From Paracoccaceae bacterium (lineage in GTDB: Bacteria > Pseudomonadota > Alphaproteobacteria > Rhodobacterales > Rhodobacteraceae), in NCBI GenBank assembly GCA_014654775.1, contig JACVZW010000058.1:1-64000 (forward strand): a stretch of DNA of 64,000 bases, written 5' to 3'. The notes below the pieces were generated by a model. The model was not told the origin of the DNA and did not search any database. It saw only the letters and a list, made by a program, of their open reading frames with translations. Positions 2,845 to 28,269 of this stretch are shown one piece after another (the first letter of the stretch is position 1; every line of letters begins with the position of its first letter). The translations under genes were made by a program, and so were the position numbers.

Positions 2845-3401
2845 TCGATGAGGCGACGATGTATTCGCAGTTCGCCGCCATCTGCAGTTGCACCAGTGTC
2901 GTTGTCCCGGCGATGTTTACGTCTCGTAAAGAGTGGTCCTCCCAGCACCCGAACGGAAGATTCGGCATCGCCTACGGAACACACCCTGCAGAACTCGACC
3001 ACGCTCGCACCACTCGCCACCTGCTACTGGAGGATATGCGCCACAAGGAAGAAGAGAGCCTCGAAACAGTGCGTTCCTTCGTCGAACTCACCAAGAAGCG
3101 TTTCTGGTCATGATCCAATAGGCGCGGTCTGAGCCGCCGCTGTTCTCGGGGTTCTTCCGACTGGTCGCATCCTCGTCTTGCACAGTCCAATCGGTCTTGA
3201 CTGCGTCCCTATCGTCCTCGGCGCCGCGTGCCGTGCTCCGGCCCCAAGGTGGCATCCCGCGCTATTCCCGGGATGAACGCCCCCCGCACACTGTGGCGCT
3301 GCCAGCAACGGCAAAAGGCCGCTGTGGGCCTGAATAGGTGCTTGGTCAGATCGGCGCGCCTTGATAGGGTGCCGCCACCTGTGTGTCTGGGAGTACGAGT
3401 G
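2845..3401 (+). other. Stretch without a supported gene upstream of the RTX gene
   Basis: A frame open to TGA at about 3111-3113 encodes a charged C-terminal part (LLLEDMRHKEEESLETVRSF) that could be the remnant of a helical protein, but no start or family is recognisable. From 3114 to 3401 there is only leader DNA of the RTX gene; no clear -35/-10 pair or operator was seen. Confidence 0.35.
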
Positions 3402-8795: not shown

Positions 8796-8797
8796 GG

Positions 8798-9415
8798 TCA
8801 GATATCGATGAAGACGGTTTCGCCGTCGCCCTGAAGGCGGATGTCGAACCGATAGGTGCCGGGGCCGGTGGCCGTGGCAATCAGCGTCTGGCGGCGGGCC
8901 GGGGATTCGACCGAGGCCAGCACCGGATCGGTGGCGTGGGCAGCGGCATCTTCGGGGAAATAGAGGCGGGTGTTCAGCCCGATGTTGATGCCGCGCGCCA
9001 CCAGCCAGAGGTTCAGATGCGGCGCCTGCGTCCGGCCCCCCCGCCCCGGCACCGCGCCGGGCTTGATCGTGTCGATGCTCCAAAGTCCTGTGTCGAAATC
9101 CGGGATCACCCGGCCCCAGCCGCGAAAACCCGGCGCGGCCTCAGCGGCGCGCGGGTCTTCGGGATGGGGGTAGATGCCCGCCGCATCGGCCTGCCAGACC
9201 TCGATCAGCACATCCTTCACCGGCCCGCCGGTCCCGTCGATCACCTGCCCGTCGATGCGGATGCGTTCGCCCGCAGTGCCTTCGGGGGCGATGACCTGAC
9301 CCAGTTCCCGGTCAAAGGTCCTGAACCCCGCCGCGCCGGGGGCGAGGCCGATATGGACATAGGGTCCCGCCGTCTGCGAGGCCGTCTCGCGCAGGTAATC
9401 CAGTGGCCGCGGCAT
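8798..9415 (-). CDS. pcaG: Protocatechuate 3,4-dioxygenase alpha subunit
   Basis: About 205 residues of the intradiol dioxygenase fold (LRETASQTAGPYVHIGLAP near the start; the DVLIEVWQADAAG strand; HLNLWLVARGIN). The alpha chain lacks the iron-ligating tyrosines and pairs with PcaH to form the Fe(III) enzyme that opens protocatechuate between the two hydroxyls. It overlaps the pcaH stop by one base (TGATG), so the two are translationally coupled. Confidence 0.94.
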   Translation of the reverse strand: MPRPLDYLRETASQTAGPYVHIGLAPGAAGFRTFDRELGQVIAPEGTAGERIRIDGQVIDGTGGPVKDVLIEVWQADAAGIYPHPEDPRAAEAAPGFRGWGRVIPDFDTGLWSIDTIKPGAVPGRGGRTQAPHLNLWLVARGINIGLNTRLYFPEDAAAHATDPVLASVESPARRQTLIATATGPGTYRFDIRLQGDGETVFIDI

Positions 9416-10137
9416 CAGTTCCCCTCCAACCGGTTTTCGAACAAGGTCGATCGCCGCCCGCGCAGCACGATGTCAAAGCGGTAAGCAAGGCAATCCATCG
9501 GGACCGAAGCATTCATGTCCAGCACGGCGATCAGCCGATCCACGGCGTCCGCATCCGGGATCGTCCGTACGATGGGGCATTGCGCGATCAGCGGGTCGCC
9601 TTCGAAGTAAAGCTGCGTGATCAGGCGCTGGCTGAACGCGGTACCGAAGACCGAGACATGGATATGCCGGGGCCGCCATGAATTGACGAAGTTCAACCAA
9701 GGATAGGGCCCTGGCTTGATGGTGCGAAAGGCGTACCGCCCCTCGGCATCGGTCAATGTGCGCCCACAGCCCCCAAAATTGGGGTCCAACGCACCCAGAT
9801 AGGCATCCTTCTTGTGCCGATAGCGGCCCGAGGCATTGGCCTGCCATATCTCAACCAAGGTGCCCGGAACGGGGCGGGCGTTTTCATCCAGCACCCGCCC
9901 ATGCAGGATCATCCGTTCCCCCACGGGCATCCCGCCATGATCGAAATTGCGCGTCAGGTCGTTGTCCAGCGCACCGATGTCGCCATGGCCAAAAGTCGGC
10001 CCGGTGATCTCGGATGCGGTCTGTTGCAGCGTCAGAAGCGGCAGGCGCGGCGACCTTGTCACGGATGTCTTGTAGCCCGGGTCGAAGGCGGGCGGATGAA
10101 GGGTGCGGTCGCGCTGATAGAACTCGGCTTGGGTCAC
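9415..10137 (-). CDS. pcaH: Protocatechuate 3,4-dioxygenase beta subunit
   Basis: About 240 residues with the N-terminal PcaH domain and the catalytic iron site: Tyr106 (SGRYRHK), Tyr145 (GPYPW), His158 and His160 ([11 protein letters not shown]), matching the 2-Tyr 2-His non-haem Fe(III) centre. The start is GTG at 10135-10137, overlapping the pcaC stop as GTGA. With PcaG it converts protocatechuate to 3-carboxy-cis,cis-muconate. Confidence 0.95.
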
Positions 10138-10520
10138 GACTGTTCCTCCTGTGCCATGGCGGCGAAGGTGTCCTTGGCGATGCGGATCGCATGATTGGCG
10201 CGGGGGATGCCTGCATAGATGGCGACGTGAAGCAGCGCCTCCATGACATCGGCCTCGGTCGCGCCGGTGTTTCGGGTGGCGCGCAGGTGCAGGACAAGCT
10301 CGCCGTCATTTCCCAACGCCGCCAAAAGCGCGATGGTGATCAGCGAGCGTTCGCGCAGCGGGATCGTGTCGCGCGCCCAGACATGGCCCCATGCCGCATC
10401 CGTGATCAGCGCCTGAAAGGGCGCGTCCAAAGGGGAAGCAGCGGCGGTGACGCGGTCGACATGGGCATCGCCCAGAACCCTGCGGCGGGTGGCGCGGCCC
10501 TTTTCGGTGATGTCGGTCAT
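10134..10520 (-). CDS. pcaC: 4-carboxymuconolactone decarboxylase
   Basis: About 128 residues of the CMD/AhpD-like fold ([55 protein letters not shown]). It decarboxylates 4-carboxymuconolactone to beta-ketoadipate enol-lactone. The longer open frame upstream is not coding; ATG 10518-10520 gives a normal-length protein and overlaps the pcaD stop as ATGA. Confidence 0.94.
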
Positions 10521-11296
10521 GCTCTCTCCGTCAGGAAAGGGGCCACGAGGGCGGCCCAAGCGGCGGGGGTTTCGACGCAGGGCAGATGGCCCGCGCCGGG
10601 GATTTCGTGGAAGACCGCGCCGGGGATGAGGTCGGCCGTCGCGCGGACAACGGCGGGGGGACTCGCGCCGTCCTCGCTGCCCGCGATCACGAGCGTGGGC
10701 AAGCGCAACGCAGCCGAAGCGGCTGTCAGGTCCGCAGCGGCAAGGGCGCGGCAGGCGGCAACATAGCCGTCGGCCGAGGTTCGGGTCAGCATCGCGCGCC
10801 AGAGCGCGCAGTCCGGCGTGGCGCGGAAGGCGGGGGCGAACCACCGCTCCATCACCGCATCGGCGACAGAGCCGAGGCCACCCGCCTCAATCGCCGCGAT
10901 ACGCGCGGACCAGCCTTCCGGCGTGCCAAGACGTGCGGCGGTGTTCGACAGCACCAGCGCGCGCACAAGATCGGGGCGTCGCAGAGCCACAGCCTGCGCA
11001 ATCAGCCCGCCGATGGATAGGCCCAGAAAGATGGCGGGGCCCCGGGCAAAGGTTTCCAAGATGGCAATGGCGTCTTCGACGTGATCCTCCAGCCTCTCGC
11101 CCCCGCCCGTGGCCGATAGCCCATGCCCGCGCTTGTCATATCGGATCAGGCGCAAATGGGGGGGAAGCAGCGGGATTACCCGATCCCAAAGCCGCAGATC
11201 GGTGCCCAGCGAATTGGCAAAGACCACGGGCAGACCGTCGTCAGGCCCGTCAATCCGGGCATGCAGGGGGCCGAAGGGGCGGGGCAGGGCGATCAT
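10517..11296 (-). CDS. pcaD: 3-oxoadipate enol-lactonase
   Basis: About 259 residues, alpha/beta-hydrolase fold: oxyanion region FANSLGTDLRLWD, RYDKRGHGLS, nucleophile elbow GLSIGG, late Asp in VIAGSEDGASPP and His in IPGAGHLPCVE. It hydrolyses the enol-lactone to beta-ketoadipate. It is a separate protein, not fused to PcaC as in some bacteria, and is the first pca gene after pobA, with a gap of 24 nt, so pobA and pca genes may be one transcript. Confidence 0.93.
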   Translation of the reverse strand: MIALPRPFGPLHARIDGPDDGLPVVFANSLGTDLRLWDRVIPLLPPHLRLIRYDKRGHGLSATGGGERLEDHVEDAIAILETFARGPAIFLGLSIGGLIAQAVALRRPDLVRALVLSNTAARLGTPEGWSARIAAIEAGGLGSVADAVMERWFAPAFRATPDCALWRAMLTRTSADGYVAACRALAAADLTAASAALRLPTLVIAGSEDGASPPAVVRATADLIPGAVFHEIPGAGHLPCVETPAAWAALVAPFLTERA

Positions 11297-12577: not shown

Positions 12578-13432
12578 ATGAAGCGACCCGGCGACACGAT
12601 TCCCACCTTCGGTCTCTACGGCGAAGAGGCGGATTTCCCGGACCTGCTGCATGTCGAGGCGCTGCGCGATCGGGCCGCGCGTCACGGCTGGGCCATCGCG
12701 CCGCATCGGCACCGCCAATTGCATCAGATCGTGCATCTGGCCGAAGGCGAGGGTTCCATGACCGTGGATGGCGAGACGCTTGTCCTGCATCCGCACGTCG
12801 CGGTGAACCTGCCGCCACAGGTGGTGCATTCCTTCCGTCTGGGCGCGGGCGCGGTGGGCGATGTGCTGACGCTGCCCATCCCGCTCTGGTCCGATCTTCT
12901 GGTGGCCGAGGCCGAGGTCGCGCCCCGGCTGGGACGTGCCTTTCTTTGTACGGTTCCGCCCGGCTTTGGCCCCGGGATGGATCGGCTGCGGCGCGAATTG
13001 CGCGACCCCGGCCCGCATCGGCGGCTGCGCCTGCAGGCGGCATTGGCCGAGGTGGTGCTCATGGTTCTGGCCGCCGAAGGCGCGGCCGGTCCGGGCGCCC
13101 CGCGCCGGACCGACCCGCGCCTTGCGGCCTTTCAGGCGCAGGTGGAGGCCGCGCCCTCCATGCGGCTGGGCGTGGCCGAAGCGGCGCGCGGGCTGGGCCT
13201 GTCAGAGCGGCATCTGTCCCGGCTGTGCCGCGATGGGGCTGGAATGGCGGCGCAAGGGGTCATCCATGCCGCCGTCTTGCGCGAGGGCTGCCGCATGCTG
13301 GCCTATACGCGCCTTCAGGTGGCCGAGGTGGGGCATCGGCTGGGCTTCGATGACCCGGCCTATTTCAGCCGCTTCTTTCAGCGCGGGACGGGGCTTTCCC
13401 CCCGCGCCTATCGTGCGCGGATTGGGGCCTAG
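12578..13432 (+). CDS. pobR: AraC-family regulator of pobA (PobR-like)
   Basis: About 284 residues: an N-terminal cupin-type ligand domain (APHRHRQLHQIVHLAEGEG) and a C-terminal double-HTH AraC domain (MRLGVAEAARGLGLSERHLS, then LQVAEVGHRLGFDDPAYFSR and FFQRGTGLSPRAYR). It is divergent from pobA, the classic arrangement for 4-hydroxybenzoate-responsive activators. ATG 12578 gives the family-like MKRPGDTIPTFGLYGEE start; a TTG 15 nt upstream is also possible. Its stop overlaps the stop of the next, convergent gene. Confidence 0.85.
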   Translation: MKRPGDTIPTFGLYGEEADFPDLLHVEALRDRAARHGWAIAPHRHRQLHQIVHLAEGEGSMTVDGETLVLHPHVAVNLPPQVVHSFRLGAGAVGDVLTLPIPLWSDLLVAEAEVAPRLGRAFLCTVPPGFGPGMDRLRRELRDPGPHRRLRLQAALAEVVLMVLAAEGAAGPGAPRRTDPRLAAFQAQVEAAPSMRLGVAEAARGLGLSERHLSRLCRDGAGMAAQGVIHAAVLREGCRMLAYTRLQVAEVGHRLGFDDPAYFSRFFQRGTGLSPRAYRARIGA

Positions 13433-13743
13433 GCGCGGGTCAGCGGATCGATCCGCCCGGCCTGAAATGTGTCGGCAAGCCGGGTCAGGATGATCTCGCG
13501 CACCACGCCGCCGGTGGCGAAGGGATCGCCTTCGGCAAAGGCGCGGGCTTCCGCTTCGCTCGCGGCCTCCAGCACGCCGAAATTGCCAATGCCCGCGCCC
13601 GCCGCATCCCAAAGCGCCGATCCGGTCAGAACGCGGGCACGGCCCTTGCCCCCCGTCGCCACCCAGTCGCGGTGCTGTGGGCGCAAGGCGTCGCGTTGCG
13701 CGTCCACCCCCGGATGGTGATGGCAGATCATCAGGAAGAACAT
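13429..13743 (-). CDS. YciI-like protein of the extradiol operon
   Basis: About 104 residues with a YCII-related ferredoxin-like fold (MICHHHPGVDAQRDALRPQH, GSALWDAAGAGIGNFGVLEA, EARAFAEGDPFATGGV). YciI domains have a conserved His/Asp pair and appear in ring-cleavage pathways as small isomerases, hydrolases or dehalogenase-like enzymes; the exact reaction here is unknown. It starts within the last codons of the LigB-like gene (13-nt overlap), so it is co-translated with the dioxygenase. ATG 13741-13743 is the best start. Confidence 0.75.
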   Translation of the reverse strand: MFFLMICHHHPGVDAQRDALRPQHRDWVATGGKGRARVLTGSALWDAAGAGIGNFGVLEAASEAEARAFAEGDPFATGGVVREIILTRLADTFQAGRIDPLTRA

Positions 13744-14582
13744 ACGGCATTCTCCAGCAGGACCATCCCCGCGCCTGTCATCGAGGCCGGGGCGAAGTAA
13801 TGGCTGTGCAGCGTCTTGACCCGCGCATCCATGCAGCCGCGCATCACCAGCCACATGATCAGTTCCGCGCCTTCCGATCCGAAGGTTTCCACATAATCGG
13901 TTAGGGCCATATCGCGCCAGCGGTCCGGGGCTGGGCCGATCTCGTCGATCCAGGCGCGGTCCGCGGCCGGGTTGATGAAGCCCGCGCGCGCGCCCTGCAA
14001 CTGGTGCGAAAGGCCGCCCGTGCCCATCACGACGATCTTTTCATCCGTGGGCCAGTTTTCGATCGCCTTGCGCAGCAGCTTTCCCAGTTCCCACATCCGC
14101 TGCGGCGTCGGCACCGGATACTGGATCGTGTTGATCAGGATCGGCACCACCTTGACGGGCCAAGCCGCAGGCCTGCCGAAGACCAGTTCCATCGGCACCT
14201 GAAGGCCGTGGTCCACGTCAAGTTCGCGGCAGATCAGCGGGTCGAAATGCCCCTCCACCATGCAATCGGCCAGATGCCATGCGAAATCCGCCGCACCTCG
14301 GAAGGGTGGGATCGGTCGCGGCCCCCAGCCTTCGTCGATCGGGTGGTATTCTTCGGCCACACCAAGGGCAAGCGTAGGAACCCGGTCAAGGAAGAAGGCG
14401 TTGCCATGATCGTTGAAGATCACCACGGCGATGTCCGGCTTCTTGGCGGCGATCCAGTCCTGCGCCGGGGTGTAGCCGTCGAAAAAGGGCGCCCATTCGG
14501 GCGTGTGGCGCAGACCCTTGTCCAGCGCAGCGGCGATGGAGGGGACGTGGCTTGTGCCCAAGCCCGCGAGGAGTTCAGCCAT
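13731..14582 (-). CDS. LigB-type extradiol dioxygenase catalytic subunit
   Basis: About 283 residues, closely resembling the protocatechuate 4,5-dioxygenase beta subunit along its whole length: His12 (GTSHVPS), His59 (IFNDHGNAF), the WGPRPIP region, VDHGLQVP, catalytic-type His193 (GTGGLSHQLQG) and Glu240 or Glu237 (GSEGAELIMW). These supply the Fe(II) site of type II extradiol enzymes. It overlaps the upstream hydrolase-LigA gene by 8 nt, so the fused LigA domain is the likely partner subunit. The substrate could be protocatechuate, gallate or 3-O-methylgallate; the neighbouring O-demethylase favours a methoxylated or trihydroxylated ring. Chosen by context, not proven. Confidence 0.87.
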   Translation of the reverse strand: MAELLAGLGTSHVPSIAAALDKGLRHTPEWAPFFDGYTPAQDWIAAKKPDIAVVIFNDHGNAFFLDRVPTLALGVAEEYHPIDEGWGPRPIPPFRGAADFAWHLADCMVEGHFDPLICRELDVDHGLQVPMELVFGRPAAWPVKVVPILINTIQYPVPTPQRMWELGKLLRKAIENWPTDEKIVVMGTGGLSHQLQGARAGFINPAADRAWIDEIGPAPDRWRDMALTDYVETFGSEGAELIMWLVMRGCMDARVKTLHSHYFAPASMTGAGMVLLENAVCSS

Positions 14583-15606
14583 TGGTCACCTTGCCCAGTC
14601 GGGTGGTCAGGAAATCGTCCAGTGTCATCCCCGCCTGCGCCGCGCCGATGGCGCGGATCGGTGTCGGGTCGACGGCGGAAATCTTCAGGATGTAGAAGAG
14701 GTTGCCGCCCAGTCTTACCATCGCCTCCCAGTCGCGGGCCTTGACGGCGGCGCGCTGGTCGGGCGTCAGGGCGAAGCGGGACAGATAGGCATCCTCATCC
14801 GCCGCAAAGGCCGCGCGGCCCTCGGGCGTGGACAGGGCCATCGCCATCTTGTTCAGCGCATAGCCTGCATTGGCGCGGGGCCGGTCGAAAAGCGGAGTCT
14901 CGGGGATGCGGTCGGCCTGCGCGGCGATCTCGGCGGACCAAGTGGCGATGACGGCGCCCACGCGGTCGGGCTGTTCGACGGGGGCGAAGTGGCCAGCCGC
15001 GTCAATCACCTCCAGCCGCGCCTGCGGGCAGAGCGCGGCGATGTCCTGATGCTGGGCAACCGGGCTCCAGACATCCTGCGCGCCGGTCAGAAGGAGGAGG
15101 GGGCCGGTCCAGCCCGGCATGGACAGCGCCGCATCCGGGCGCGACAACAGCGCGCGCAGCTGGCGTTCATGAATGTCGGGGGTAAATCGGCAGACCATCG
15201 CGGTCAGATCGGCCATCAGCGCGGGGTCGGGCGTGCGGCCTGCGGCCATCATGCCGGGCAGCCAGCTTTCGGCCAGCGCGACCATTCCGGACTTATGCGC
15301 AAGATCGATCTTCTCCTGCCGCTTGGCCTCTTCCCCTTCGCGGCGGGGATGCATGCCAGTGTTCAGAAGCGCCATCCCCGCCAGACGGGACGGGGCAAGG
15401 CGCGCCATTTCCATCGCCACGCGCCCGCCCATCGAATGCCCGGCCAGGATCAGGCGGCCGGGGTGGCGGGCCAGCAGGTCCTGCGCCATCGCGGTGATCG
15501 TGGCTTGGGTCGAGACGTCGGCCACCACCGCCGGGATGCGCGCGGTGACGCCGTGCCAGACAAAGGCGTCGGAGACGAGGCCGGGGATCAGCAAAAGCGT
15601 GGGCAT
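14575..15606 (-). CDS. Alpha/beta-hydrolase fused to a LigA-type dioxygenase alpha domain
   Basis: About 343 residues in two parts. Residues 1-225 are an alpha/beta-hydrolase: LLLIPGLVSDAFVW, nucleophile elbow GHSMGG (Ser58), Asp178 in LTGAQDVWSP and His206 in AAGHFAPVE. Residues 243-335 match the LigA superfamily: GYALNKMAMALSTPEGR, DAYLSRFALTPDQRAAV, WEAMVRLGGNLFYILKI. LigA-type chains normally stand alone as the small subunit capping the LigB active site. The gene lies between the LigM/DesA-type gene and ligB. The fusion would join ring cleavage and hydrolysis of its product, for example a methyl ester from a methoxylated ring. Domains are seen; the substrate is inferred. Confidence 0.85.
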   Translation of the reverse strand: MPTLLLIPGLVSDAFVWHGVTARIPAVVADVSTQATITAMAQDLLARHPGRLILAGHSMGGRVAMEMARLAPSRLAGMALLNTGMHPRREGEEAKRQEKIDLAHKSGMVALAESWLPGMMAAGRTPDPALMADLTAMVCRFTPDIHERQLRALLSRPDAALSMPGWTGPLLLLTGAQDVWSPVAQHQDIAALCPQARLEVIDAAGHFAPVEQPDRVGAVIATWSAEIAAQADRIPETPLFDRPRANAGYALNKMAMALSTPEGRAAFAADEDAYLSRFALTPDQRAAVKARDWEAMVRLGGNLFYILKISAVDPTPIRAIGAAQAGMTLDDFLTTRLGKVTNG

Positions 15607-15614
15607 CGCAGGGC

Positions 15615-15654
15615 CTTTCGCGAAAGATGCCGCCCGGGGTCATCCCCGGGCGGC
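15615..15654 (-). promoter_or_regulatory. Intercistronic palindrome and strong hairpin
   Basis: Between the O-demethylase stop and the hydrolase-LigA start lie a perfect 11-bp stem with a 4-nt loop (15629-15639 with 15644-15654) and, just beside it, the perfect 12-bp palindrome CTTTCGCGAAAG (15615-15626). There is no T-run, so this is more likely an mRNA-stabilising or processing element, or a leaky terminator, than a full terminator. Confidence 0.6.
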
Positions 15655-15668
15655 CAGTTCAGGAGAGT

Positions 15669-17078
15669 TCACTTCGCCTTGCTGCGCCAGCTGTCGGCAT
15701 AGTTGGTCCGCGCCTCGGCGGCATAGGGCGTGGGGGCCACGCGGACGCGGATGTCGGCCTGACGGTGCGGCTCGGTCGAGGTCTTTCCGGTCGTCTCCGG
15801 CTCGCCCCATTTCAAGGTCAGGATGTCTCCCACCTGCAAATCCTGCGCGACGACGCCCAGCGACAGCAGGCAGCGTTCGTTCCAGCTGTAACCGTTGAAC
15901 ATGCTCATCCCCACCATCTTGCCGTCGCGCAGCACCATGTCGGCGCTGGAGGAGGCATAGTTCGGCTGCGGGAAGTCGATCCACTTGGCGGGCACGCCCT
16001 GTTCAAAGGCAGTGGCGATGACAGCCAGCACATCCTCGCGGTTCCATTCGAAGGTGACCTTCTTGCGGTTCTTGGGGCTGCCCTTCATTGCGGCAAGCGC
16101 CGCCTTGCCGATGAAGTCGTCCTTCTTCCAGCCGATGTAGAAGTCATAGCCCAGCTCGAAGGGGTTCACGTAATAGTCTTCGATGCTGTCCGACACGAAG
16201 CTGCCGCCGATGGCCCCCGCCGCCTCGTACATGTCGGCCCCCAGCCAGTCGCGGTAATCGGCCAGCATCCCGCCGCCCGTATAGATGCCGGGCAGGGGCG
16301 ACGGGATCCAGCCGGATTCCAGCGTGTTGGTCGAATAGGCGCGGCTGCCGCATTGCACGAGGTTCACCCCCGCGTCCCGCGCCGCCTGCAGGATGGTGGA
16401 CTGGATGTAATCCTTGTCCTTGTAGGGACCCCAGATTTCCAGCCCCGGCGCACCGGACATGCCGTGGCGCAGCGCCTGCACCTTCTTCGATCCAATGGTG
16501 ATCCAGTCGACATGGAAGAACTTGATGTCGGGGATCGGGCCGCCATTCATCTTCTCAAAGATCTTCGGCGCATCCGGCCCTTGGATCTGAAAGCGGTAAT
16601 GCCCGCGGATCACCCGTTCTCCTTCCGGGCGCGAAGGGGACCGTGGGTCATAACGCAGCCTCACGTTCCACTTGCCCCATGCGGCGCAGAACATCAGCCA
16701 GTTGGAGGTGGGCGCCCGCCCGACGAGGATGTATTTGTCCTCGCGTTCGCGGAAGATGATGTGGTCGCCGATGACGTGCCCGGCGGGGGTCACGGGAACG
16801 AAATGCTTGGCGCGGTTTAGGTCGAAATTGGCAAAGCTGTTGATGCCGTGATGGGACAGGAATTCGGTCGCCTGCGGGCCTTCGACGATGACCTCGTCCA
16901 TGTGGTGGCTCTGGTCGAACAGGACCGCAGACTGCCTCCATGCGGTCTGCTCGTTGCGCCAGTTCTGGAATTCCGGCGCCACGACCGGATAGACATACAT
17001 CCCGGCTTTCGAATTGCGCAGCATCGTCACCGGATTTCCGGCAGCGGCCATCGCGGCAGAGAGCGAGTTCACTGGCAT
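15669..17078 (-). CDS. Tetrahydrofolate-dependent aromatic O-demethylase (LigM/DesA type)
   Basis: About 469 residues of the GcvT-like aminomethyltransferase fold, matching LigM/DesA throughout: MLRNSKAGMYVYPVVAPEF, AVLFDQSHHM, VTPAGHVIGDHIIF, LRHGMSGAPGLEIWGPY, TLESGWIPSPLPGIY, GAIGGSFVSDSIEDYYVNP, and MVGMSMFNGYSWNERCLLSL. Enzymes of this type move the methyl of vanillate, syringate or 3-O-methylgallate to tetrahydrofolate. The preference among these cannot be read from sequence. A GGAGG site precedes ATG 17076-17078. First gene of the operon with hydrolase-LigA, ligB and yciI. Confidence 0.88.
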   Translation of the reverse strand: MPVNSLSAAMAAAGNPVTMLRNSKAGMYVYPVVAPEFQNWRNEQTAWRQSAVLFDQSHHMDEVIVEGPQATEFLSHHGINSFANFDLNRAKHFVPVTPAGHVIGDHIIFREREDKYILVGRAPTSNWLMFCAAWGKWNVRLRYDPRSPSRPEGERVIRGHYRFQIQGPDAPKIFEKMNGGPIPDIKFFHVDWITIGSKKVQALRHGMSGAPGLEIWGPYKDKDYIQSTILQAARDAGVNLVQCGSRAYSTNTLESGWIPSPLPGIYTGGGMLADYRDWLGADMYEAAGAIGGSFVSDSIEDYYVNPFELGYDFYIGWKKDDFIGKAALAAMKGSPKNRKKVTFEWNREDVLAVIATAFEQGVPAKWIDFPQPNYASSSADMVLRDGKMVGMSMFNGYSWNERCLLSLGVVAQDLQVGDILTLKWGEPETTGKTSTEPHRQADIRVRVAPTPYAAEARTNYADSWRSKAK

Positions 17079-17241: not shown

Positions 17242-18117
17242 CTATAGCTTCAGCAGTTTGCGGGCATTTTCCTTCAGGATCAGGGGGCGCACCTCGTCGC
17301 GAATGGGCAGCGCCTCGAAATCCTTCAGCCAGCGGTCGGGCGTGATCGCGGGCCAGTCCGACCCGAACAGCATCTTGTGCTTCAGGATCGTGTTTGCGTA
17401 ATGCACGAAGATCGGCGGAAAGTACTTGGGCGACCAGCCCGACATGTCGATATAGACGTTGGGCTTGTGCTGGGCGATGGCGAGGCCCTCTTCCGTCCAA
17501 GGGAAGGACGGATGGGCCAGCACGATGGGCATGTCCGGGAAATCCACTGCCACATCGTCAATGTGGATGGGGTTGGAGTATTTCAGCCGCATCCCCATGC
17601 CGCCGCGCATGCCCGACCCTACCCCCGTCTGGCCGGTGTGGAAGAGGCAGATGCCGCCTTCCTCGGCAATTGCCTCGTACAGCGGGTAGGCCATCGGATC
17701 GTTGGGAAAGAAGCCCTGCATCGTGGGGTGGAACTTGAAGCCCTTCACCCCGTATTCGCGGATCAGCTTGCGCGCCTGCCGCGCGCCGACGCGGCCCTTC
17801 GCCGGGTCGATGCTGGCGAAAGGGATCAGGATGTCGGCATTCGCGGCACAAAGCTCTGCGATCTCTTCGTTATTGTGGCGGTAGAAGCCCGTCTCGCGTT
17901 CCGCATCCACGCCGAAGATCACCGCCGCGATCCGGCGTTCGCGGTAATAGGCGGCGGTCTGTGGCACGGTGGGCAGCATCCCGTCGATCCCCGCCGGATT
18001 GCGGAAATAGGCGGCCATGCCGGCCTGGAATTCGTTATAGCCATCGTCGCGATGGCAGTTGCAGGGTTCTTCCGCATGTGTGTGGAAGTCGATGGCGATG
18101 ATGTCGTCAAGGTTCAT
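17242..18117 (-). CDS. Amidohydrolase-2 family protein, candidate hydroxyphenyl-beta-ketoacyl-CoA hydrolase
   Basis: About 291 residues of the metal-dependent amidohydrolase_2 (ACMSD-like) family: N-terminal HxH in IDFHTHAEEPC, FKFHPTMQGFF, LFHTGQTGVGSG, LAHPSFPWTEEG and GSDWPAITPDRW, which supply the metal ligands. Relatives next to hydroxycinnamoyl-CoA genes are annotated as 4-hydroxyphenyl-beta-ketoacyl-CoA hydrolases; decarboxylases and 4-oxalomesaconate hydratases (LigJ) share the fold. The co-operonic crotonase and the divergent SDR favour the ketoacyl-CoA role. ATG 18115-18117 lies inside the end of the MarR gene (11-nt overlap). Confidence 0.75.
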   Translation of the reverse strand: MNLDDIIAIDFHTHAEEPCNCHRDDGYNEFQAGMAAYFRNPAGIDGMLPTVPQTAAYYRERRIAAVIFGVDAERETGFYRHNNEEIAELCAANADILIPFASIDPAKGRVGARQARKLIREYGVKGFKFHPTMQGFFPNDPMAYPLYEAIAEEGGICLFHTGQTGVGSGMRGGMGMRLKYSNPIHIDDVAVDFPDMPIVLAHPSFPWTEEGLAIAQHKPNVYIDMSGWSPKYFPPIFVHYANTILKHKMLFGSDWPAITPDRWLKDFEALPIRDEVRPLILKENARKLLKL

Positions 18118-18571
18118 GCCCGTGCTCCTGCAAGGAAAGATATCTGCGCAGAAGATGCCGCAATTGCGCGGCTTCCTCTGCCGTAAGGGTGGCGGGGGGC
18201 GCCGTCTCATGCGCATGGACGGCGGACCACGCGCGTTCGGCTTCGGCCAGACCGGCGGGCGTTAGGTGCAACTCAATCGCGCGGCGGTCATCGGCGGGCA
18301 CGCTACCGCGCAGAAGGCCCGCCTGTTCCAGCGACTGGACGATCTTGGTCATATGCGCCCGCTTGATCCGCAGCGCGCGGGCCAACACGCCCTGCCGGAT
18401 GCCGGGATTGCCGCGCACCATCAGCAGGATGGACAGGCTGCCGGGCAGGGGGGCCGCGCCCTCCATAGCTGCGAAATAGGCCTCGAAGGCCTCCAACTGC
18501 GCAAGGCGAAGCAGAAAGCCAAGGCTGTCGCCCAGCGGTCCCCAGTCAAGCCTGCCCTCCGGCGCGGTCAC
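18107..18571 (-). CDS. MarR-family regulator of the hydroxycinnamate genes
   Basis: About 154 residues with a winged HTH (PGIRQGVLARALRIKRAHMTK, VQSLEQAGLLRGSVPADDRR) typical of MarR proteins such as CouR/FerR, which sense hydroxycinnamoyl-CoA thioesters and repress catabolic genes. The start appears to be GTG 18569-18571, 7 nt after the crotonase stop. The perfect palindrome at 19474-19488 in the divergent promoter upstream is a good candidate operator. The ligand is inferred from neighbours. Confidence 0.82.
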   Translation of the reverse strand: MTAPEGRLDWGPLGDSLGFLLRLAQLEAFEAYFAAMEGAAPLPGSLSILLMVRGNPGIRQGVLARALRIKRAHMTKIVQSLEQAGLLRGSVPADDRRAIELHLTPAGLAEAERAWSAVHAHETAPPATLTAEEAAQLRHLLRRYLSLQEHGHEP

Positions 18572-18578
18572 CCCCCTG

Positions 18579-19367
18579 TCACTCCTTCGGGGCCTGCAGC
18601 CGGGCGGTGCGCTTTTCGAGGAAGTCGCGCAAGCGTTCCTTCGCCTCGGGCGTGACAGAGGTCAGCGACGACATCAGCGACTCGACGAAAAGTCCGTCTT
18701 CCGAGGACATGTCGCGGATGCGCGGCAAAGCGTTCAGGATCGCATAATTCGACATCGGCGCATTGCTTGCGGCCGATCTGGCCAGGTCGATGGCGCGCGT
18801 CAGCGCCTGACCTTCCGGCACCACATAGGAGATTCCGCCCCACTGTTCCATCTGGTCGGGGCTGACGGTGCGGCCCGTCAGCATCATGTCGCCCATCCGC
18901 TGCGCGCCAATCAGACGGGCGATGCGCACGGCGCCGCCGCCGCCCACAAAGATGCCGCGCTGTCCTTCCGGCAGGCCGAAGAAGGCGGTCCTGTCGGCCA
19001 CCCGGATATGGGCGGCGGCCGCGAGTTCGAAACCGCCCCCCACCACCGCGCCCTGCATGGCGCAGACGAAGGGGATCGCGCCCCGTTCGATGCCGTCGAA
19101 GATGCGATGCCAGCGCCGCGACCCCTGCACGGCGGCGATCAGCGGCTTCTCCATATGCTCGGCCAGATCGAGGCCCGCGCAGAAATGCGCACCCGCGCCA
19201 TGGATCACCGCGGCCCGCGCCTCGTCCTGCGCGCGTTCGACGGCGAGGTGCAGCGCCTCGACCACACGGTCCGAGATGGCATTGCGCTTTTCCGGACGGT
19301 TCAGCGCGATCAGGGCGATGTCACCGTCCAGCCGATAGGTGATCAGGGCTTCGCTGCTGCCGTCCAT
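18579..19367 (-). CDS. Crotonase-family enoyl-CoA hydratase/lyase
   Basis: About 262 residues: IALIALNRPEKRNAISDRVV, GAGAHFCAGLDLAEH (oxyanion hole), AVVGGGFELAAAAHIRVAD, and FGLPEGQRGIFVGGGGAVR. It would hydrate a feruloyl-, coumaroyl- or caffeoyl-CoA double bond. Whether it also cleaves to the aldehyde (Ech-type hydratase-lyase) or stops at the 3-hydroxyacyl-CoA is not decidable by eye; the SDR and amidohydrolase nearby favour the latter. ATG 19365-19367 follows an AGGAGG site. Divergent from the CoA ligase. Confidence 0.82.
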   Translation of the reverse strand: MDGSSEALITYRLDGDIALIALNRPEKRNAISDRVVEALHLAVERAQDEARAAVIHGAGAHFCAGLDLAEHMEKPLIAAVQGSRRWHRIFDGIERGAIPFVCAMQGAVVGGGFELAAAAHIRVADRTAFFGLPEGQRGIFVGGGGAVRIARLIGAQRMGDMMLTGRTVSPDQMEQWGGISYVVPEGQALTRAIDLARSAASNAPMSNYAILNALPRIRDMSSEDGLFVESLMSSLTSVTPEAKERLRDFLEKRTARLQAPKE

Positions 19368-19419
19368 TCCATCCTCCTGCGACGGCAGGGCCGTCTTTCT
19401 TGCTTAATAGTAATGGCAT

Positions 19420-19431
19420 ATAACTGTATCC
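19420..19431. promoter_or_regulatory. ATAAC-type element in the crotonase-ligase divergent promoter
   Basis: ATAACTGTATCC is identical to the element at 12519-12530 (pobA-pobR) except for one base. It lies 53 nt upstream of the crotonase start in a locally AT-rich segment, so it may overlap a promoter. Confidence 0.45.
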
Positions 19432-19473
19432 TTGTAAACAACTGTTGCGCGGGCCAGTCCGGTCGGGTAGATT

Positions 19474-19488
19474 GTTATTTCAAATAAC
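19474..19488. promoter_or_regulatory. Perfect palindrome, candidate MarR operator
   Basis: GTTATTTCAAATAAC is a perfect inverted repeat with 7-bp arms and one central base. It is placed about 50 nt upstream of the CoA-ligase start and about 107 nt upstream of the crotonase start, so it could control the rightward promoter. The size and AT-rich symmetry fit MarR-type operators. Confidence 0.65.
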
Positions 19489-19540
19489 GATCATCCGGCG
19501 TGACCGGAGGACGTGGCGACAGGTTCCGATGGGGGGAAGG

Positions 19541-21373
19541 ATGCCGAATCCCGATGTGGCGCTGCAGATGCAGACGCGGGCGGATGGGTCGATTCTGGTC
19601 TGGCAGGAGGCGGGCCTGTCAGGCTGGCCCCGCGCCACGACCGAGCGTCTGCTGCACTGGGCGGCAGATCGGCCCGACGCCATCTGGCTGGCCGAACGCG
19701 ACGGGGCCGGCGGCTGGCACCGGGTCAGCTATGGCCATGGGGCGGCGGCGGTGCAGGCGATCGGCTCGGCACTCCTCGACCTCGGGCTGTCGGCGGAAAG
19801 ACCGCTCCTGATCCTGTCGGGCAATTCCGTGGCGCATGCGCTGATGGCGCTCGGGGCGCAGCATGCGGGCATCCCCTCGGCGGCCCTATCGCCCGCCTAT
19901 GCCTTGTCGAGCGGGGATCGGGCGAAGCTCGCCTCGGTGGTGGCGCAACTCACCCCCGGCGCGGTCTTTGCCGATTTCGCGGCACCTTTCCTGCCGGCCA
20001 TCTCCGCCACGCTGGGGGCGGATGTTCCCCTCATCTCGATCGCCGGACGGGCAGAGGATCGCCTTACGCTGGCCTTCGATGATCTGATGGCGACGCCGCC
20101 CTCTGACGCGATGCTCGCCGCCCATGCCGGGATCACGGGCGCGATAGTGGCGAAGTTCCTCTTCACATCCGGCACAACGGGCAGTCCAAAGGCGGTGATC
20201 CAGACCCATGGCATGATCTGCGCCAATCAAGAAATGGTGGCCGCCGCCTACGGCTTCACCCCCGAAGACCCGCCCGTCATCGTGGACTGGGCGCCTTGGA
20301 ACCACACGGCCAGCGGCAACAAGGTCTTCCACATGGCGCTGCACAATGGCGGCACCTATCACATCGACGATGGTCGCCCCACGCAGGACGGTATCGCCCG
20401 CACCATCGCCAATCTGCGCGAGGTCGCGCCGACATGGTATTTCAACGTGCCAATCGGCTTCCAGTTCCTGATCGACGCGATGGAGAAAGACGAGGCGCTG
20501 GCCGACCGGTTCTTCTCGCGGCTGAAGATGCTGATGTATGCAGGCGCAGGGATGAGCCAGCCTGTCTGGGACCGCCTCGCCGCGCTGGCCGCGCGCAAGG
20601 TGGCGGGTGGGGTGCCCATCGTCTCGGGTCTCGGGGCGACGGAGACGGGGCCCTTCGCGCTGTATTACGCCGAAGGCAAGGATGCACCGGGCAACATCGG
20701 CTATCCCGCGCGCGGCGTGGTGCTGAAGCTGGTCCCCGCCGAAGGCAAGCTGGAAGCGCGGCTGAAAAGCCCATCGATCACGCCGGGATACTGGCGCAAT
20801 CCGGACCTGACGGCGCAGGCTTTCGACGAGGAAGGCTTCTACCGTCTGGGCGATGCGCTGCGCTTCGCCCAACCGGGTGATCCGGCGGCGGGGTTCATCT
20901 TCGACGGACGTCTGGCCGAGAATTTCAAGCTGGCCACGGGCACATGGGTCGCGGTCGGGGCGCTGCGCGCGGGGCTTGTGAATGCGCTGGGTGGGCTGGC
21001 CAGCGACGCTGTCATCGCGGGCGAGGAGAAGGATGATCTGCGGGCGCTGCTGGTGCCCTCATGGGCCGCCATGAGAGCCTTGGCAGGGTTGGGAGCAGAG
21101 GCCGCGCAGGGTGAGGTTTTGGCCCACCCCGCCCTGCGCGCAGCCCTTGCCGAACGTCTGTCGGCCCATGCCCGCGCAGCGACGGGCAGCGCCAGCCGGA
21201 TCGTGGCAGCGATGGTGCTGGAGACACCGCTCAGTTTCGATAAGGGCGAAGTGACGGACAAGGGATCCGTCAACCAGCGCGCGGTTTTGCGTGAACGGGC
21301 CGATCTGGTGGCCGCGCTCTACGGCGATGATCCGCGCGTGATCCGGGCGGAATGGAAGGGACGGACGGAATGA
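19541..21373 (+). CDS. fcs: Feruloyl-CoA synthetase-type aromatic acid CoA ligase
   Basis: About 610 residues of the ANL superfamily: P-loop FTSGTTGSPKAVIQTH, DWAPWNHTASGN, LGATETGPFALYY, ITPGYWRNPDLT, FYRLGDALRF and a C-terminal part with SFDKGEVTDKGSVNQRAVL. Length and these segments match feruloyl-CoA synthetases (Fcs), which activate ferulate, p-coumarate and caffeate with ATP and CoA. The start at ATG 19541 follows a GGGGGGAAGG run; ATG 19529 is an in-frame alternative. It is coupled to the SDR gene by an ATGA overlap. Confidence 0.86.
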   Translation: MPNPDVALQMQTRADGSILVWQEAGLSGWPRATTERLLHWAADRPDAIWLAERDGAGGWHRVSYGHGAAAVQAIGSALLDLGLSAERPLLILSGNSVAHALMALGAQHAGIPSAALSPAYALSSGDRAKLASVVAQLTPGAVFADFAAPFLPAISATLGADVPLISIAGRAEDRLTLAFDDLMATPPSDAMLAAHAGITGAIVAKFLFTSGTTGSPKAVIQTHGMICANQEMVAAAYGFTPEDPPVIVDWAPWNHTASGNKVFHMALHNGGTYHIDDGRPTQDGIARTIANLREVAPTWYFNVPIGFQFLIDAMEKDEALADRFFSRLKMLMYAGAGMSQPVWDRLAALAARKVAGGVPIVSGLGATETGPFALYYAEGKDAPGNIGYPARGVVLKLVPAEGKLEARLKSPSITPGYWRNPDLTAQAFDEEGFYRLGDALRFAQPGDPAAGFIFDGRLAENFKLATGTWVAVGALRAGLVNALGGLASDAVIAGEEKDDLRALLVPSWAAMRALAGLGAEAAQGEVLAHPALRAALAERLSAHARAATGSASRIVAAMVLETPLSFDKGEVTDKGSVNQRAVLRERADLVAALYGDDPRVIRAEWKGRTE

Positions 21374-24855: not shown

Positions 24856-25602
24856 ATGACAGACCCGCACCACCCCCCGAAATCCGCCCTCGTCATCAGC
24901 GCCCATGCCGCCGATTTCGTCTGGCGCGCGGGCGGCGCCATCGCGCTGCATGCGGCCATGGGCTGGAAGGTGACGGTCGTCTGCCTCTCTTTCGGCGAAC
25001 GCGGCGAAAGCGCGAAGCTGTGGAAGCAGCCCGGCATGACACTCGACCGCGTCAAGGCCGCACGGCGGGCCGAGGCAGAGCGGGCGGCGGTGGCGCTGGG
25101 CGTGCATGACCTGATCTGCTTCGATCTGGGCGACTACCCGCTTCAGATGGATCGCGCCGATAAAGACCGTCTGGTCGATGTGATGCGCGACGTGGACCCG
25201 GCCTTCATGCTCAGCCATTCCTCCTACGATCCCTACAATGCCGATCACATGATGACCACGCAGATCGTCCTCGAATGCCGCTCCACCGCGCAGGCCTGGG
25301 GGCACAAGCCGGGCGGCAAGGTCCTTGGCGCGCCGCAACTCTACCTATTCGAGCCGCATCAGACCGAACAGATGGGCTGGAAGCCGGACACCTTCCTCGA
25401 CATCACCCCTGTCTGGGACAGGAAGCGTGCCGCCATCGAATGCATGGAAGGGCAGGAACACCTGTGGGACTTCTACACCCGCGTCGCCCAGAACCGCGCC
25501 AATCACTTCACCCGCAATTCGGGCGGACAGTCGGGCGGACGGGCCTGCAAATATGCCGAAGGCTTCCAGTCCGTCTTCCCCCGTACCGTGGACATGCTGT
25601 GA
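24856..25602 (+). CDS. galB: 4-oxalomesaconate hydratase (GalB type, PIG-L fold)
   Basis: About 248 residues of the PIG-L zinc hydrolase superfamily. The N-terminus (VISAHAADFVWRAGGAIALH), FGERGESAKLW, the HSSYDPYNADH region and YLFEPHQTEQMGWKPDTFLD closely follow the GalB 4-oxalomesaconate hydratase of pseudomonads. It hydrates 4-oxalomesaconate to 4-carboxy-4-hydroxy-2-oxoadipate. It is the first gene of a four-gene operon; the next gene starts in its stop codon (TGATG). Confidence 0.86.
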   Translation: MTDPHHPPKSALVISAHAADFVWRAGGAIALHAAMGWKVTVVCLSFGERGESAKLWKQPGMTLDRVKAARRAEAERAAVALGVHDLICFDLGDYPLQMDRADKDRLVDVMRDVDPAFMLSHSSYDPYNADHMMTTQIVLECRSTAQAWGHKPGGKVLGAPQLYLFEPHQTEQMGWKPDTFLDITPVWDRKRAAIECMEGQEHLWDFYTRVAQNRANHFTRNSGGQSGGRACKYAEGFQSVFPRTVDML

Positions 25603-26555
25603 TGGACATCGCACATCTTGGCCATGTGGAGGTTCTGACCGACCGCTTCGAGGACAGCCTCGATTTCTTCACCCGCGTCTACGGATTGAAGCTGACGGAA
25701 CGGGACGCCGATCACGCTTGGCTGCGGGCTTGGGATGATTACGAACATCACAGCCTGAAGCTGACACGGTCCACCACGACGGGGGTCGGCCATATCGCCT
25801 ATCGCACCACCAGCGAAGCGGCGCTGGAGCGGCGGGCGGCGGCCATCACGGCCGCAGGCTACAAGGTGCTGGGCTGGGTCCCGGGGGATCGCGGCCATGG
25901 CCGCGCCTTCCGTTTCGAAGACCCCTTCGGCCATGTGTTCGAACTGTACTGGAACACCGTCAAACATCGCGGCACGGCGGCCGAGGCGCCCGCGCTGAAG
26001 AACACCGCCAGCGCCTTCACCGGGGCTGCGCCGCGTCGCCTTGACCACCTCAACCTATTGGCGGCCGATGTGGCCGAGTTCCGGCGCTTCATGGAAACCT
26101 GTCTCGGGTCCCGCGTGACCGAGATGATCCAGCTGGACAATGGCCGCATCGGCGGCTGCTGGTTTACGGTGAACAACAAAACCTATGATCTGGCCTGCAC
26201 CGAAGATCACAGCGGCGGGTCCCATGTCGAAGGCGGCGGGCGGCTGCATCACGTCACCTTTGCCACCGACCAGCGCGAGGACATCCTGCGCGCGGCCGAC
26301 ATCTTCCTGCAGAACGGCGTGCATATCGAGACGGGGCCGCACAAGCACGCCATTCAGGGCACCTTCTTCCTCTATGTCTGGGAACCGGCAGGCAACCGGG
26401 TGGAACTGGCCAATGCCGGGGCGCGGCTGATCCTCGATCCCGACTGGCAGACCGTCATCTGGACCGAGACCGAGCGTCGCAAGGGCCAGGCCTGGGGACT
26501 AAAGACCATCGACACCTTCCACAGCCACGGCACCCCGCCCATCGGAAAGGACTGA
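25602..26555 (+). CDS. VOC-family type I extradiol dioxygenase
   Basis: About 317 residues with two VOC modules. The Fe(II) site is expected in the second: His in LDHLNLLA, His in LHHVTFATD, Glu in PAGNRVELAN; the first module carries HLGHVEVLTD and FEDPFGHVFELYW. This is the catechol 2,3-dioxygenase (BphC/XylE) type, unrelated to LigB. It lies inside an operon for 4-oxalomesaconate metabolism, where a LigB-type gallate dioxygenase would be expected, so it probably cleaves a catechol or pyrogallol ring feeding the same lower pathway. The substrate is unknown. Confidence 0.83.
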   Translation: MDIAHLGHVEVLTDRFEDSLDFFTRVYGLKLTERDADHAWLRAWDDYEHHSLKLTRSTTTGVGHIAYRTTSEAALERRAAAITAAGYKVLGWVPGDRGHGRAFRFEDPFGHVFELYWNTVKHRGTAAEAPALKNTASAFTGAAPRRLDHLNLLAADVAEFRRFMETCLGSRVTEMIQLDNGRIGGCWFTVNNKTYDLACTEDHSGGSHVEGGGRLHHVTFATDQREDILRAADIFLQNGVHIETGPHKHAIQGTFFLYVWEPAGNRVELANAGARLILDPDWQTVIWTETERRKGQAWGLKTIDTFHSHGTPPIGKD

Positions 26556-26558
26556 TCC

Positions 26559-27230
26559 ATGCCCGTCGTCGTGCAATCCATCCCGCGTGCCGACAGTGCG
26601 GTCATCGACGGCCTTGCCCGCGCAGGTGCCGCCACGGTGCATGAGGCGCAGGGCCGGCGAGGCTGCCTTGCCCCCCACCTCCGCCCGATCTGGACCGGTG
26701 CCCAGATCGCCGGCAGCGCCGTCACCATCAGCGCGCCCCCCGGCGACAATTGGATGCTGCATGTCGCCATCGAACAGGTGCAACCCGGCGACATCCTCGT
26801 CCTCGCCCCGACCAGCCCCTGCGAGGACGGCTATTTCGGCGACCTTCTCGCCACCAGCGCGATGGCGCGCGGCTGTCGCGGGCTGGTGATCGAGGCGGGC
26901 GTGCGCGATGTGCGCGACCTGACGGCGATGGGCTTTCCGGTCTGGTCCAAGGCGATCTCGGCCCAAGGCACGGTGAAGGCAACCTTGGGCGATGTGAACC
27001 TGCCCCTCGTGATCGGCGGGCAGATGGTGCATCCGGGCGACGTGATCGTGGCCGATGATGATGGCGTGGTCGTCGTGCGCCGCGACGAGGCCGCCGATGT
27101 TCTGGCGGCGGCCGAAAAGCGGCTGGCGGCGGAAGAATCAAAGCGCGCGAAACTTGCCGCAGGGGTGCTTGGCCTTGATCTTTACGACATGCGCGGGGCC
27201 TTGGCAGCAAAGGGCCTGACCTATGTCTGA
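26559..27230 (+). CDS. galC: 4-carboxy-4-hydroxy-2-oxoadipate aldolase (GalC/LigK type)
   Basis: About 223 residues of the RraA-like fold, with the class II aldolase pattern GDLLA followed after about 20 residues by GVRD ([20 protein letters not shown]), which carries the metal-binding Asp and the catalytic Arg. It cleaves CHA to pyruvate and oxaloacetate. Only 3 nt separate it from the VOC gene; galD starts within its last codons (8-nt overlap). Confidence 0.88.
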
Positions 27231-28269
27231 CGGCATCCCCTGCCTCTGGATGCGGGGGGGCACGTCAAAGGCAGCGGTCTTTCTGGCCGCCGACCTTCCT
27301 GCCATACCCGAGGCCCGGGATGCGCTGCTTCTCCGATTGCTCGGCAGCCCCGATATCCGGCAGATCGACGGGATCGGCGGCGGCGATCCGCTGACCTCGA
27401 AAGTGGCGGTGCTGGCCCCGCCCAGTCGGGCGGATGCCGATGTGGACTACCTCTTCCTGCAGGTCTTTCCCGACCGGCCCGTCGTTTCGGCGGCGCAGGG
27501 CTGCGGCAATGTCCTTGCCGCCGTCGGCCCCGCCGCGATCGAACGCGGTCTGGTGCCCGTCGCGGGCGCGGTGACGCCCGTCCGCATCCACATGGTCAAT
27601 ACCGGCGAAGTGGCAGTGGCCGAGGTGGCCACGCCCGAAGGCCGGGTCATCTACGACGGGCTCGCCGCGATCGACGGCGTGCCGGGAACCGCCGCCGCCG
27701 TGCCCCTGATGTTCGACCGCATCGCAGGCTCGATGTGCGGCGCGCTCCTGCCCAGCGGTGCGGCGCAAGAGGTGATCGACGGCGTGGCCTGCACGCTGAT
27801 CGACAACGGCATGCCCGTGGTGGCGATGGATGCCGCCGCCTTCGGCCTGCGGGGAGACGACACCCCCGAGGCGCTGGAGGCCGACCTTGCCCTCAAGGCA
27901 CGGGTCGAGGCGATCCGTCTGCAGGCCGGCTGGCGGATGGGTCTGGGCGATGTGGCGCAGGCTTCGGTGCCCAAGATGGTGCTGGTCAGCCCACCGCGCT
28001 CCGGCGGGGCCTTTTCCACCCGCTGCTTCATTCCCCATCGCGTGCATGCCGGGGTCGGGGTGCTTGCGGCGGTCTCTGTAGCGACGGCCTGCCTCCTGCC
28101 GGACAGCGCCGTGGCGCATCTGGCCGCGCTGCCGCCTGATGGGCGCTTTGTGGTCGAACATCCCTCCGGCGCGACCGAGGTCTTCCTGCGCATCGAAGCG
28201 GGCCGGGTGACCGGGGCAGGCACGATCCGCACCGCGCGCAAGCTCTTTGACGGTCTCGTCTTCCCCTGA
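27223..28269 (+). CDS. galD: 4-oxalomesaconate tautomerase (GalD/LigU type, PrpF family)
   Basis: About 348 residues of the PrpF/diaminopimelate-epimerase-like fold: [67 protein letters not shown], and [15 protein letters not shown]. Such proteins isomerise keto/enol or allylic forms of 4-oxalomesaconate. It is the last gene of the operon, overlapping galC. Confidence 0.86.

Follow-up and report, generated by a model that had tools for sequence, protein, structure and literature searches.

Why should an α/β-hydrolase and the LigA part of a ring-opening dioxygenase be encoded as one protein, and which reactions would such a protein carry out? The question is raised by a locus in a 64,000-nucleotide stretch of DNA from Paracoccaceae bacterium (assembly GCA_014654775.1, contig JACVZW010000058.1, positions 1 to 64,000; hereafter, the window), in which a hydrolase–LigA fused gene lies between a LigM-type O-demethylase gene and ligB. 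We found that the fusion is genuine and occurs intact in several genomes. Judged by comparison with characterized systems, the fused protein, here named MgaCA, and its LigB partner probably couple the ring opening of 3-O-methylgallate (3MGA) to hydrolysis of the resulting methyl ester, with GalD, GalB, and GalC finishing the pathway. The pathway itself is already known from Pseudomonas sp. NGC7; the single-chain arrangement is one that we did not find in the literature searched (few subscription papers and no bioRxiv preprints). The locus consists of the following features.

13429..13743, minus strand: YCII-family protein, 104 residues (PF03795, 47.9 bits against a cut-off of 24)
13731..14582, minus strand: LigB-type catalytic subunit, class III extradiol dioxygenase (MgaB-like), 283 residues
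14575..15606, minus strand: fused gene, α/β-hydrolase (MgaC-like) plus LigA domain (MgaA-like), 343 residues, from Pfam and NCBIfam profiles
14929..15606, minus strand: hydrolase domain, residues 1–226, from Pfam hydrolase matches and a conserved triad
15433-15435, 15073-15075, and 14989-14991, minus strand: triad codons for Ser58, Asp178, and His206, respectively
14599..14856, minus strand: LigA domain core (PF07746), residues 251–336
15669..17078, minus strand: LigM-type tetrahydrofolate-dependent O-demethylase, 469 residues (NF047885)

All four genes are on the minus strand and are transcribed in the order LigM-type gene, fusion, ligB, and YCII-family gene. A preliminary description of the window, made from the letters alone, had placed the fused gene between a LigM/DesA-type gene and ligB, with overlapping coding ends. 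The position is correct, and the fusion does overlap ligB by 8 bp (ligB, in turn, overlaps the YCII gene by 13 bp), whereas a 62-bp gap separates the fusion from the LigM-type gene. The mixed LigM/DesA label can be narrowed to its first half, as the demethylase passes the LigM equivalog model (NF047885, 609 bits against 580) and falls short of the DesA model (NF047633, 540.6 against 800); the next best match in the same genome reaches 60.9 bits.

The two domains of the fused protein are readily told apart. Five α/β-hydrolase Pfam models score above their cut-offs, with Abhydrolase_6 spanning residues 30–216, and the triad first read from the translation (Ser58, Asp178, and His206) is borne out by its invariance in 37 of 37 aligned sequences scoring above 250 bits, own copy counted. 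LigA-like sequence begins around residue 229, and the doubt that the C-terminal part might not be LigA-like is removed by a PF07746 match of 97.8 bits against a cut-off of 25.3 that covers profile positions 1–86 of 87. The LigA model PF07746 and the LigB model PF02900 each have one match in the genome, both at this locus. An AlphaFold2 model built from a 36-row alignment has a mean predicted local distance difference test score (pLDDT) of 91.2 and a predicted template-modelling score of 0.72, with both domains confident and a linker predicted to be flexible (residues 234–240, pLDDT below 50). With the whole fusion as the Foldseek query, all 50 matches listed fall on the hydrolase part; the best among them is a thermophilic esterase of Thermogutta terrifontis, the top ones are carboxylesterases, and others include a feruloyl esterase, BioH, and the enol-lactonase PcaD structure 2xua. 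The PcaD sequence model also matches the hydrolase, at 67 bits, under its cut-off.

An assembly frameshift that joined two genes is ruled out, because in-frame fusions occur in other, independent assemblies. Intact in-frame fusions are present in 10 genomes: that of the window, those of loci L002–L008, G784 (L129), and G226 (L071). At one more locus, L009, the LigA part is in frame with only the rear of the hydrolase, which is frameshifted. The codon-position GC pattern of the window gene continues across the hydrolase/LigA junction. The fusion is in frame in all 6 of the 19 genus genomes that carry it, one of them a single contig, and some of these six are the genomes behind L002–L005. Sampled evenly, the family yielded LigA in 43 of 394 genomes and the hydrolase–LigA fusion in two (G000 and G226). 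A sample of the class gave a LigA match in 40 of 385 genomes, and seven of its long-frame LigA matches, in six regions and not counting a 447-residue frame in G520 and other frames of 355–429 residues with weak, partial LigA scores, held no further hydrolase–LigA fusion. Two sets of apparent additional fusions were rejected. Among 11 long LigA frames besides those of the window and G226, nine are LigB–LigA frames (L068–L070, L072, L150, L151, L153, and two in L154), one is the LigA of a split pair (L149), and one is a weak, divergent LigB/LigA-like frame (L152). Loci with near-full query coverage are not all fusions either: tblastn had merged two adjoining genes, and L010–L017, L019, L020, and L028 are split despite such coverage. 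A plasmid search with the fusion gave 148 matching records, none with a single place covering 80% of it.

The LigB-type protein scores 187.8 bits against PF02900 and 349.3 bits against NF009901 (cut-off 290). Of 71 LigB rows in an alignment that includes the own copy, 70 keep His12, His59, His193, and Glu240 (numbered as in SYK-6 LigB), and the remaining row is gapped; we take His12, His59, and Glu240 to be the iron ligands and His193 the catalytic histidine of the SYK-6 enzyme. By sequence, the pair is of the LigAB type, with a LigB that retains the iron-ligand and catalytic positions beside a LigA part, as in SYK-6 protocatechuate 4,5-dioxygenase (1B4U/1BOU). It differs in that SYK-6 LigA is free-standing, whereas LigA in the window is fused and has Ile in place of Phe103. 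The gallate dioxygenase GalA/DesB likewise chains its LigA part to another pathway enzyme; there, LigA is C-terminal to LigB in one chain, whereas here it is carried by the hydrolase and LigB is a separate open reading frame (ORF).

Position 103 may bear on the substrate. All 11 fused sequences, L009 and the window's own copy among them, have Ile there; where a hydrolase gene shares the locus (n = 19), the residues are Ile (11), Val (6), and Met (2), and in other LigA domains (n = 42), Phe (16), Val (15), Met (5), Asn (4), Pro (1), and Leu (1). In SYK-6 LigAB, according to the available sections of PMC10094722, Phe103 determines how selective the enzyme is at C5 of its substrate; several changes at this residue increase activity on gallate and 3MGA, while some upset LigA–LigB pairing. 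An Ile at this position fits a roomier substrate pocket, as far as sequence can tell.

The reactions are best discussed against the pathway of NGC7, as given in the available text of a 2025 report (PMC12314914). Mutants of this strain established that growth on syringate requires vanA1B1, mgaAB, mgaC, galD, galC, and galB. The proposed route runs from 3MGA to the methyl ester CHMOD, then to 4-carboxy-2-hydroxymuconate (CHMA), and finally to 4-oxalomesaconate (OMA). A ΔmgaC strain did not grow on syringate and turned it into 2-pyrone-4,6-dicarboxylate (PDC) at 95% molar yield. The window resembles this system in having LigA-type and LigB-type subunits, a post-cleavage α/β-hydrolase, and a GalBCD lower pathway, and its parts fit the NGC7 pathway one to one, except for the demethylase and the tautomerase. 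MgaC and MgaA are separate proteins in NGC7, whereas the MgaC-like and MgaA-like parts share one chain in the window; demethylation is by VanA1B1 in NGC7 and by a LigM-type enzyme here; and MgaD, a SnoaL-like protein (pfam13577; PMC12314914), has a YCII gene in its place. Novosphingobium aromaticivorans offers a similar case in DesC and DesD, a CHMOD methylesterase and an isomerase proposed to take CHMOD to OMA (PMC8091115 and PMC12314914, available sections). DesC is also an α/β-hydrolase, and NGC7 MgaC is reported to be 13% identical to it (PMC12314914). The lower pathway had been placed at 24.9–28.3 kb in the preliminary description, and the three gal-type genes were indeed found there, at 24856–28269.

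24856..25602, plus strand: galB-like hydratase of the PIG-L family (PF02585, 80.6 bits)
26559..27230, plus strand: galC/ligK, 4-carboxy-4-hydroxy-2-oxoadipate aldolase (TIGR02798, 365.1 against 304.5)
27223..28269, plus strand: galD, 4-oxalomesaconate tautomerase (NF033377, 466.7 against 440)

No NCBIfam GalB model matched the first of these, which we take to be GalB from its gene position and from the family to which GalB belongs. GalD was present in all 11 genomes searched and lay on the contig of the hydrolase gene in eight.

From these comparisons, we infer the substrate, the reactions, the role of the YCII protein, and any channelling. The upstream LigM-type enzyme would provide or share a methoxylated substrate. 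The LigA domain would pair with LigB, the product of the overlapping gene that follows, giving an extradiol dioxygenase that cleaves the ring of 3MGA to yield CHMOD. The attached hydrolase would strip methanol from CHMOD to give CHMA before CHMOD cyclises to PDC; no LigI-like enzyme for hydrolysing PDC was found in this genome. An isomerisation of the hydrolase product is probably needed as well, and the YCII protein, perhaps its catalyst, would probably aid the tautomerisation of CHMA to OMA; GalD, GalB, and GalC would then convert OMA to pyruvate and oxaloacetate. The route first suggested for the window, through a methyl ester, release of methanol, and GalD/B/C, is thus well supported by the comparison with NGC7, but its claim that OMA is the direct hydrolase product is not established, as CHMA comes first in NGC7. 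Nor is its opening step, demethylation of syringate by the LigM-type enzyme, established.

Gene neighbourhoods in relatives were counted in 26 fetched stretches that comprise the fused loci, L009, and the split loci. A LigM-type gene is present in 22 (all except L071, L017, L149, and L014, the last at a contig end) and a YCII gene in 24 (all except L008, at a contig end, and L149). L124 holds hydrolase, LigB, LigA, galD, galC, and galB in one stretch, and L127 holds LigM, hydrolase, LigA, LigB, YCII, galD, galC, and galB. Outside the YCII-type loci, three Marinomonas loci and a gammaproteobacterial metagenome-assembled genome have the order LigA–LigB–hydrolase followed by a SnoaL_4 domain; LigA, LigB, hydrolase, and SnoaL occur together in L022–L024 and L026. 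In Marinomonas pontica (L022:7965-9164), the same hydrolase family is fused to the SnoaL_4 domain in a protein of 399 residues, which by sequence is an MgaC-like part joined to an MgaD-like part, i.e., another fusion within the same pathway. SnoaL_4 is a separate gene in L026, and in L021 (labelled Limnohabitans), the hydrolase gene overlaps the SnoaL_4 gene. Altogether, SnoaL_4, the Pfam family to which MgaD of NGC7 is assigned, lies beside or is fused to the hydrolase in five of seven gamma/beta-type loci (L021–L024 and L026). On a Roseomonas mucosa plasmid (L131), LigA–LigB–hydrolase is followed by a gene annotated as catechol 2,3-dioxygenase, and no YCII or SnoaL gene is named alongside. 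It is possible that YCII in the alphaproteobacterial loci is a non-orthologous replacement of the SnoaL-type CHMA tautomerase. TftG, a YCII member, is a dehydrochlorinase with a His-Asp dyad (PMC7641849, available sections).

The fate of PDC was approached through LigI. With a Paraburkholderia protein (349 bits against solved LigI) as the query and a threshold of E ≤ 1e-10, we found a LigI-like gene in none of the six fusion genomes of the genus, two of which are 83% and 91% complete. Seven of eight other family genomes have one, five at 64–69% identity, G226 at 52%, and G350 at 47%; G356 has none. Similarly, a LigC-like query gave just 26–31% identical matches in the six fusion genomes of the genus, and LigC-like genes at 53–56% identity in G222, G272, G005, G315, and G097.

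A number of observations weigh against coupled ring opening and methyl-ester hydrolysis as the role of this locus, in addition to the incomplete genomes just mentioned. The hydrolase was likened to NGC7 MgaC (PSN_2689) by description and gene context, and it is also similar to PcaD and to general esterases. Having Ile, Val, or Met at position 103 does not set the fusions apart, as Val and Met occur in 15/42 and 5/42 of the other LigA domains. Of the 22 loci with LigM, six (L010, L013, L019, L028, L126, and L127) have it on the opposite strand, where it is, therefore, not co-transcribed. Five loci hold the hydrolase near LigM without adjoining LigAB: L121 and L122 have hydrolase–YCII pairs, whereas L018, L120, and L123 show just the hydrolase and LigM. 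The link between demethylase and hydrolase might be older or stronger than that with LigA. In L025 and L027, neither LigAB nor SnoaL was among the nearby genes inspected. The GalD search covered hydrolase-bearing genomes only and had no negative control. LigI-like genes are carried by G226, the second fused lineage, and by the split G350, so the arrangement does not generally depend on LigI being absent. As for the demethylase, the available sections of PMC6888825 describe SYK-6 LigM as a vanillate/3MGA demethylase, and LigM homologs are not known, from the literature consulted, to act on syringate. Finally, the half-life of CHMOD is about 70 min (PMC12314914, available text), which weakens the need for tethering and for strict channelling, and the NGC7 data given there, in our reading, separate CHMOD hydrolysis from PDC hydrolysis incompletely.

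How the fusion arose can be read from relatives in which it is absent. In 15 split loci (L010–L017, L019, L020, L028, L125–L127, and L149), hydrolase, LigA, and LigB are separate, adjoining genes in that order; L020, one of them, comes from Roseinatronobacter. LigA is normally a separate protein, as the preliminary description had it, but the fusion looks derived from an adjoining gene pair found in several families. In a maximum-likelihood tree of 29 loci and 605 columns, the G226 fusion groups with the split G350 locus (support 100/97) and stands apart from the fused lineage of the window, and a single clade of all fusions is rejected (approximately unbiased test, p 6e-31). The fused label changes at least 3 times on the tree, and the starred branches force 2 changes; two loci, L124 and L125, sit on long branches, and support is weak for 9 of the 26 inner branches. 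Because the five outgroup loci lack the fusion, the simplest reading of these sequences is a split ancestor and at least two independent fusions, each of which would have joined two adjoining, often overlapping, genes. The tree alone may also be compatible with fusion followed by re-splitting, or with gene transfer.

The strongest rival explanation accepts the proposed reactions and denies the fusion any functional advantage: overlapping genes would have been joined by drift, with both enzymes working independently. LigA starts within the hydrolase gene, overlapping its stop by 4 bp, in 5 of the 11 split junctions inspected (L011, L012, and L014–L016, among L010–L017, L019, L020, and L028), so that a small indel could fuse the genes; the flexible linker and the lifetime of CHMOD point the same way. 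However, the simplest reading requires at least two separate fusions, the fused frame remains open down to 67% identity within the lineage of the window, and in Marinomonas (L022), it is a SnoaL domain, not LigA, to which a member of this hydrolase family has been joined. We give drift a little less than an even chance. The opposite extreme is a full channelling scheme, in which an (MgaCA)(MgaB) complex hands the methyl-ester product from the LigB site to the tethered hydrolase and so avoids dead-end PDC from syringyl-lignin carbon, the parts having been welded at least twice and YCII having replaced a SnoaL-type tautomerase in these alphaproteobacteria. Taken as a whole, this scheme is tentative, and we lean towards doubting it.

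Two further alternatives reassign the reactions and are both improbable. In one, the hydrolase domain would be a PDC-opening lactonase that takes the place of LigI, not a CHMOD methyl esterase. The absence of LigI-like genes from the six fusion genomes of the genus and the likeness to the enol-lactonase PcaD in both score and fold favor this idea, and build-up of PDC in NGC7 ΔmgaC would be equally expected if MgaC were a PDC hydrolase. Conversely, PDC is stable, so that tethering its hydrolase to the dioxygenase would bring little, both the hydrolase and a LigI-like gene are present in G226 and G350, the top fold matches listed are carboxylesterases, and the window has a separate PcaD. In the other, the dioxygenase acts on gallate made by LigM from 3MGA and yields OMA directly, leaving the hydrolase for another ester or a side activity. 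The neighbouring gene does pass the model of a vanillate/3MGA demethylase, galBCD is the gallate lower pathway, and LigAB-type enzymes take gallate (PMC8091115, available sections); yet gallate requires no hydrolase, and the hydrolase stays beside LigA in the 15 split loci, is part of the fusion in 10 genomes, and has an invariant triad in the sequences aligned. Protocatechuate as the main substrate is disfavored, because the window has its own intradiol route (pcaHG), and the companions of 4,5-cleavage, ligC and ligI, have no close LigC-like and no LigI-like counterpart in the fusion genomes of the genus.

Coupling of 3MGA ring opening to ester hydrolysis thus remains the reading we favor, and it is set among other genes of aromatic metabolism.

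7959-9083, minus strand: 3-oxoadipate:acetyl-CoA acetyltransferase (NF053568, 493.8 against 350, from ORF residue 98), beside pcaG, pcaH, pcaC, and pcaD
8798..10137, minus strand: pcaG and pcaH, protocatechuate 3,4-dioxygenase (TIGR02423, 249.2 against 126.25; TIGR02422, 358.6 against 296.4)
10517-11296: PcaD
25605..26555, plus strand: catechol-2,3-dioxygenase-like (VOC) protein between galB and galC (TIGR03211, 293.5, below the cut-off of 320.2, from ORF residue 111)

The acetyltransferase may provide another final step for the beta-ketoadipate route. In L015 and L126, homologs of the VOC enzyme (75–77% identity) share the locus with LigM and the hydrolase; by sequence, the VOC enzyme would be a second ring-opening-type enzyme in the same setting. 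The LigM-type neighbour of the fusion may also serve vanillate; the VanA_C model matches at 72.8 bits in the window's own genome, below its cut-off in two genus relatives, and at 158.5 bits in G226. At 17242–22125 lie an Amidohydrolase_2 gene and an enoyl-CoA hydratase gene (minus strand) and an acyl-CoA synthetase gene and an SDR gene (plus strand), a set that also adjoins the fusion in L003–L007, L009, and L129. We take these genes to resemble a CoA-dependent pathway for hydroxycinnamate (ferulate/sinapate) side chains of the CouL/M/N/O type, which would supply vanillate or syringate. Assignment of the first of them (17242–18216) as LigI or LigJ is unsupported, its sole match among solved structures being BB4693. 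Outside the pathway, a 1072-residue ORF at 3228–6446 (plus strand) contains RTX calcium-binding nonapeptide repeats.

Bacterial syringate catabolism was called largely unknown as recently as 2025 (abstract of PMC12314914), and the locus suggests that Rhodobacteraceae have a compact route for the aromatics of syringyl lignin. It offers a ready enzyme pair for studying the coupling of ring opening to ester hydrolysis, and the two fused lineages, with their split relatives, permit a direct comparison of fused and split forms. The arrangement also bears on PDC production, as it is from CHMOD that carbon goes either to PDC or into central metabolism.

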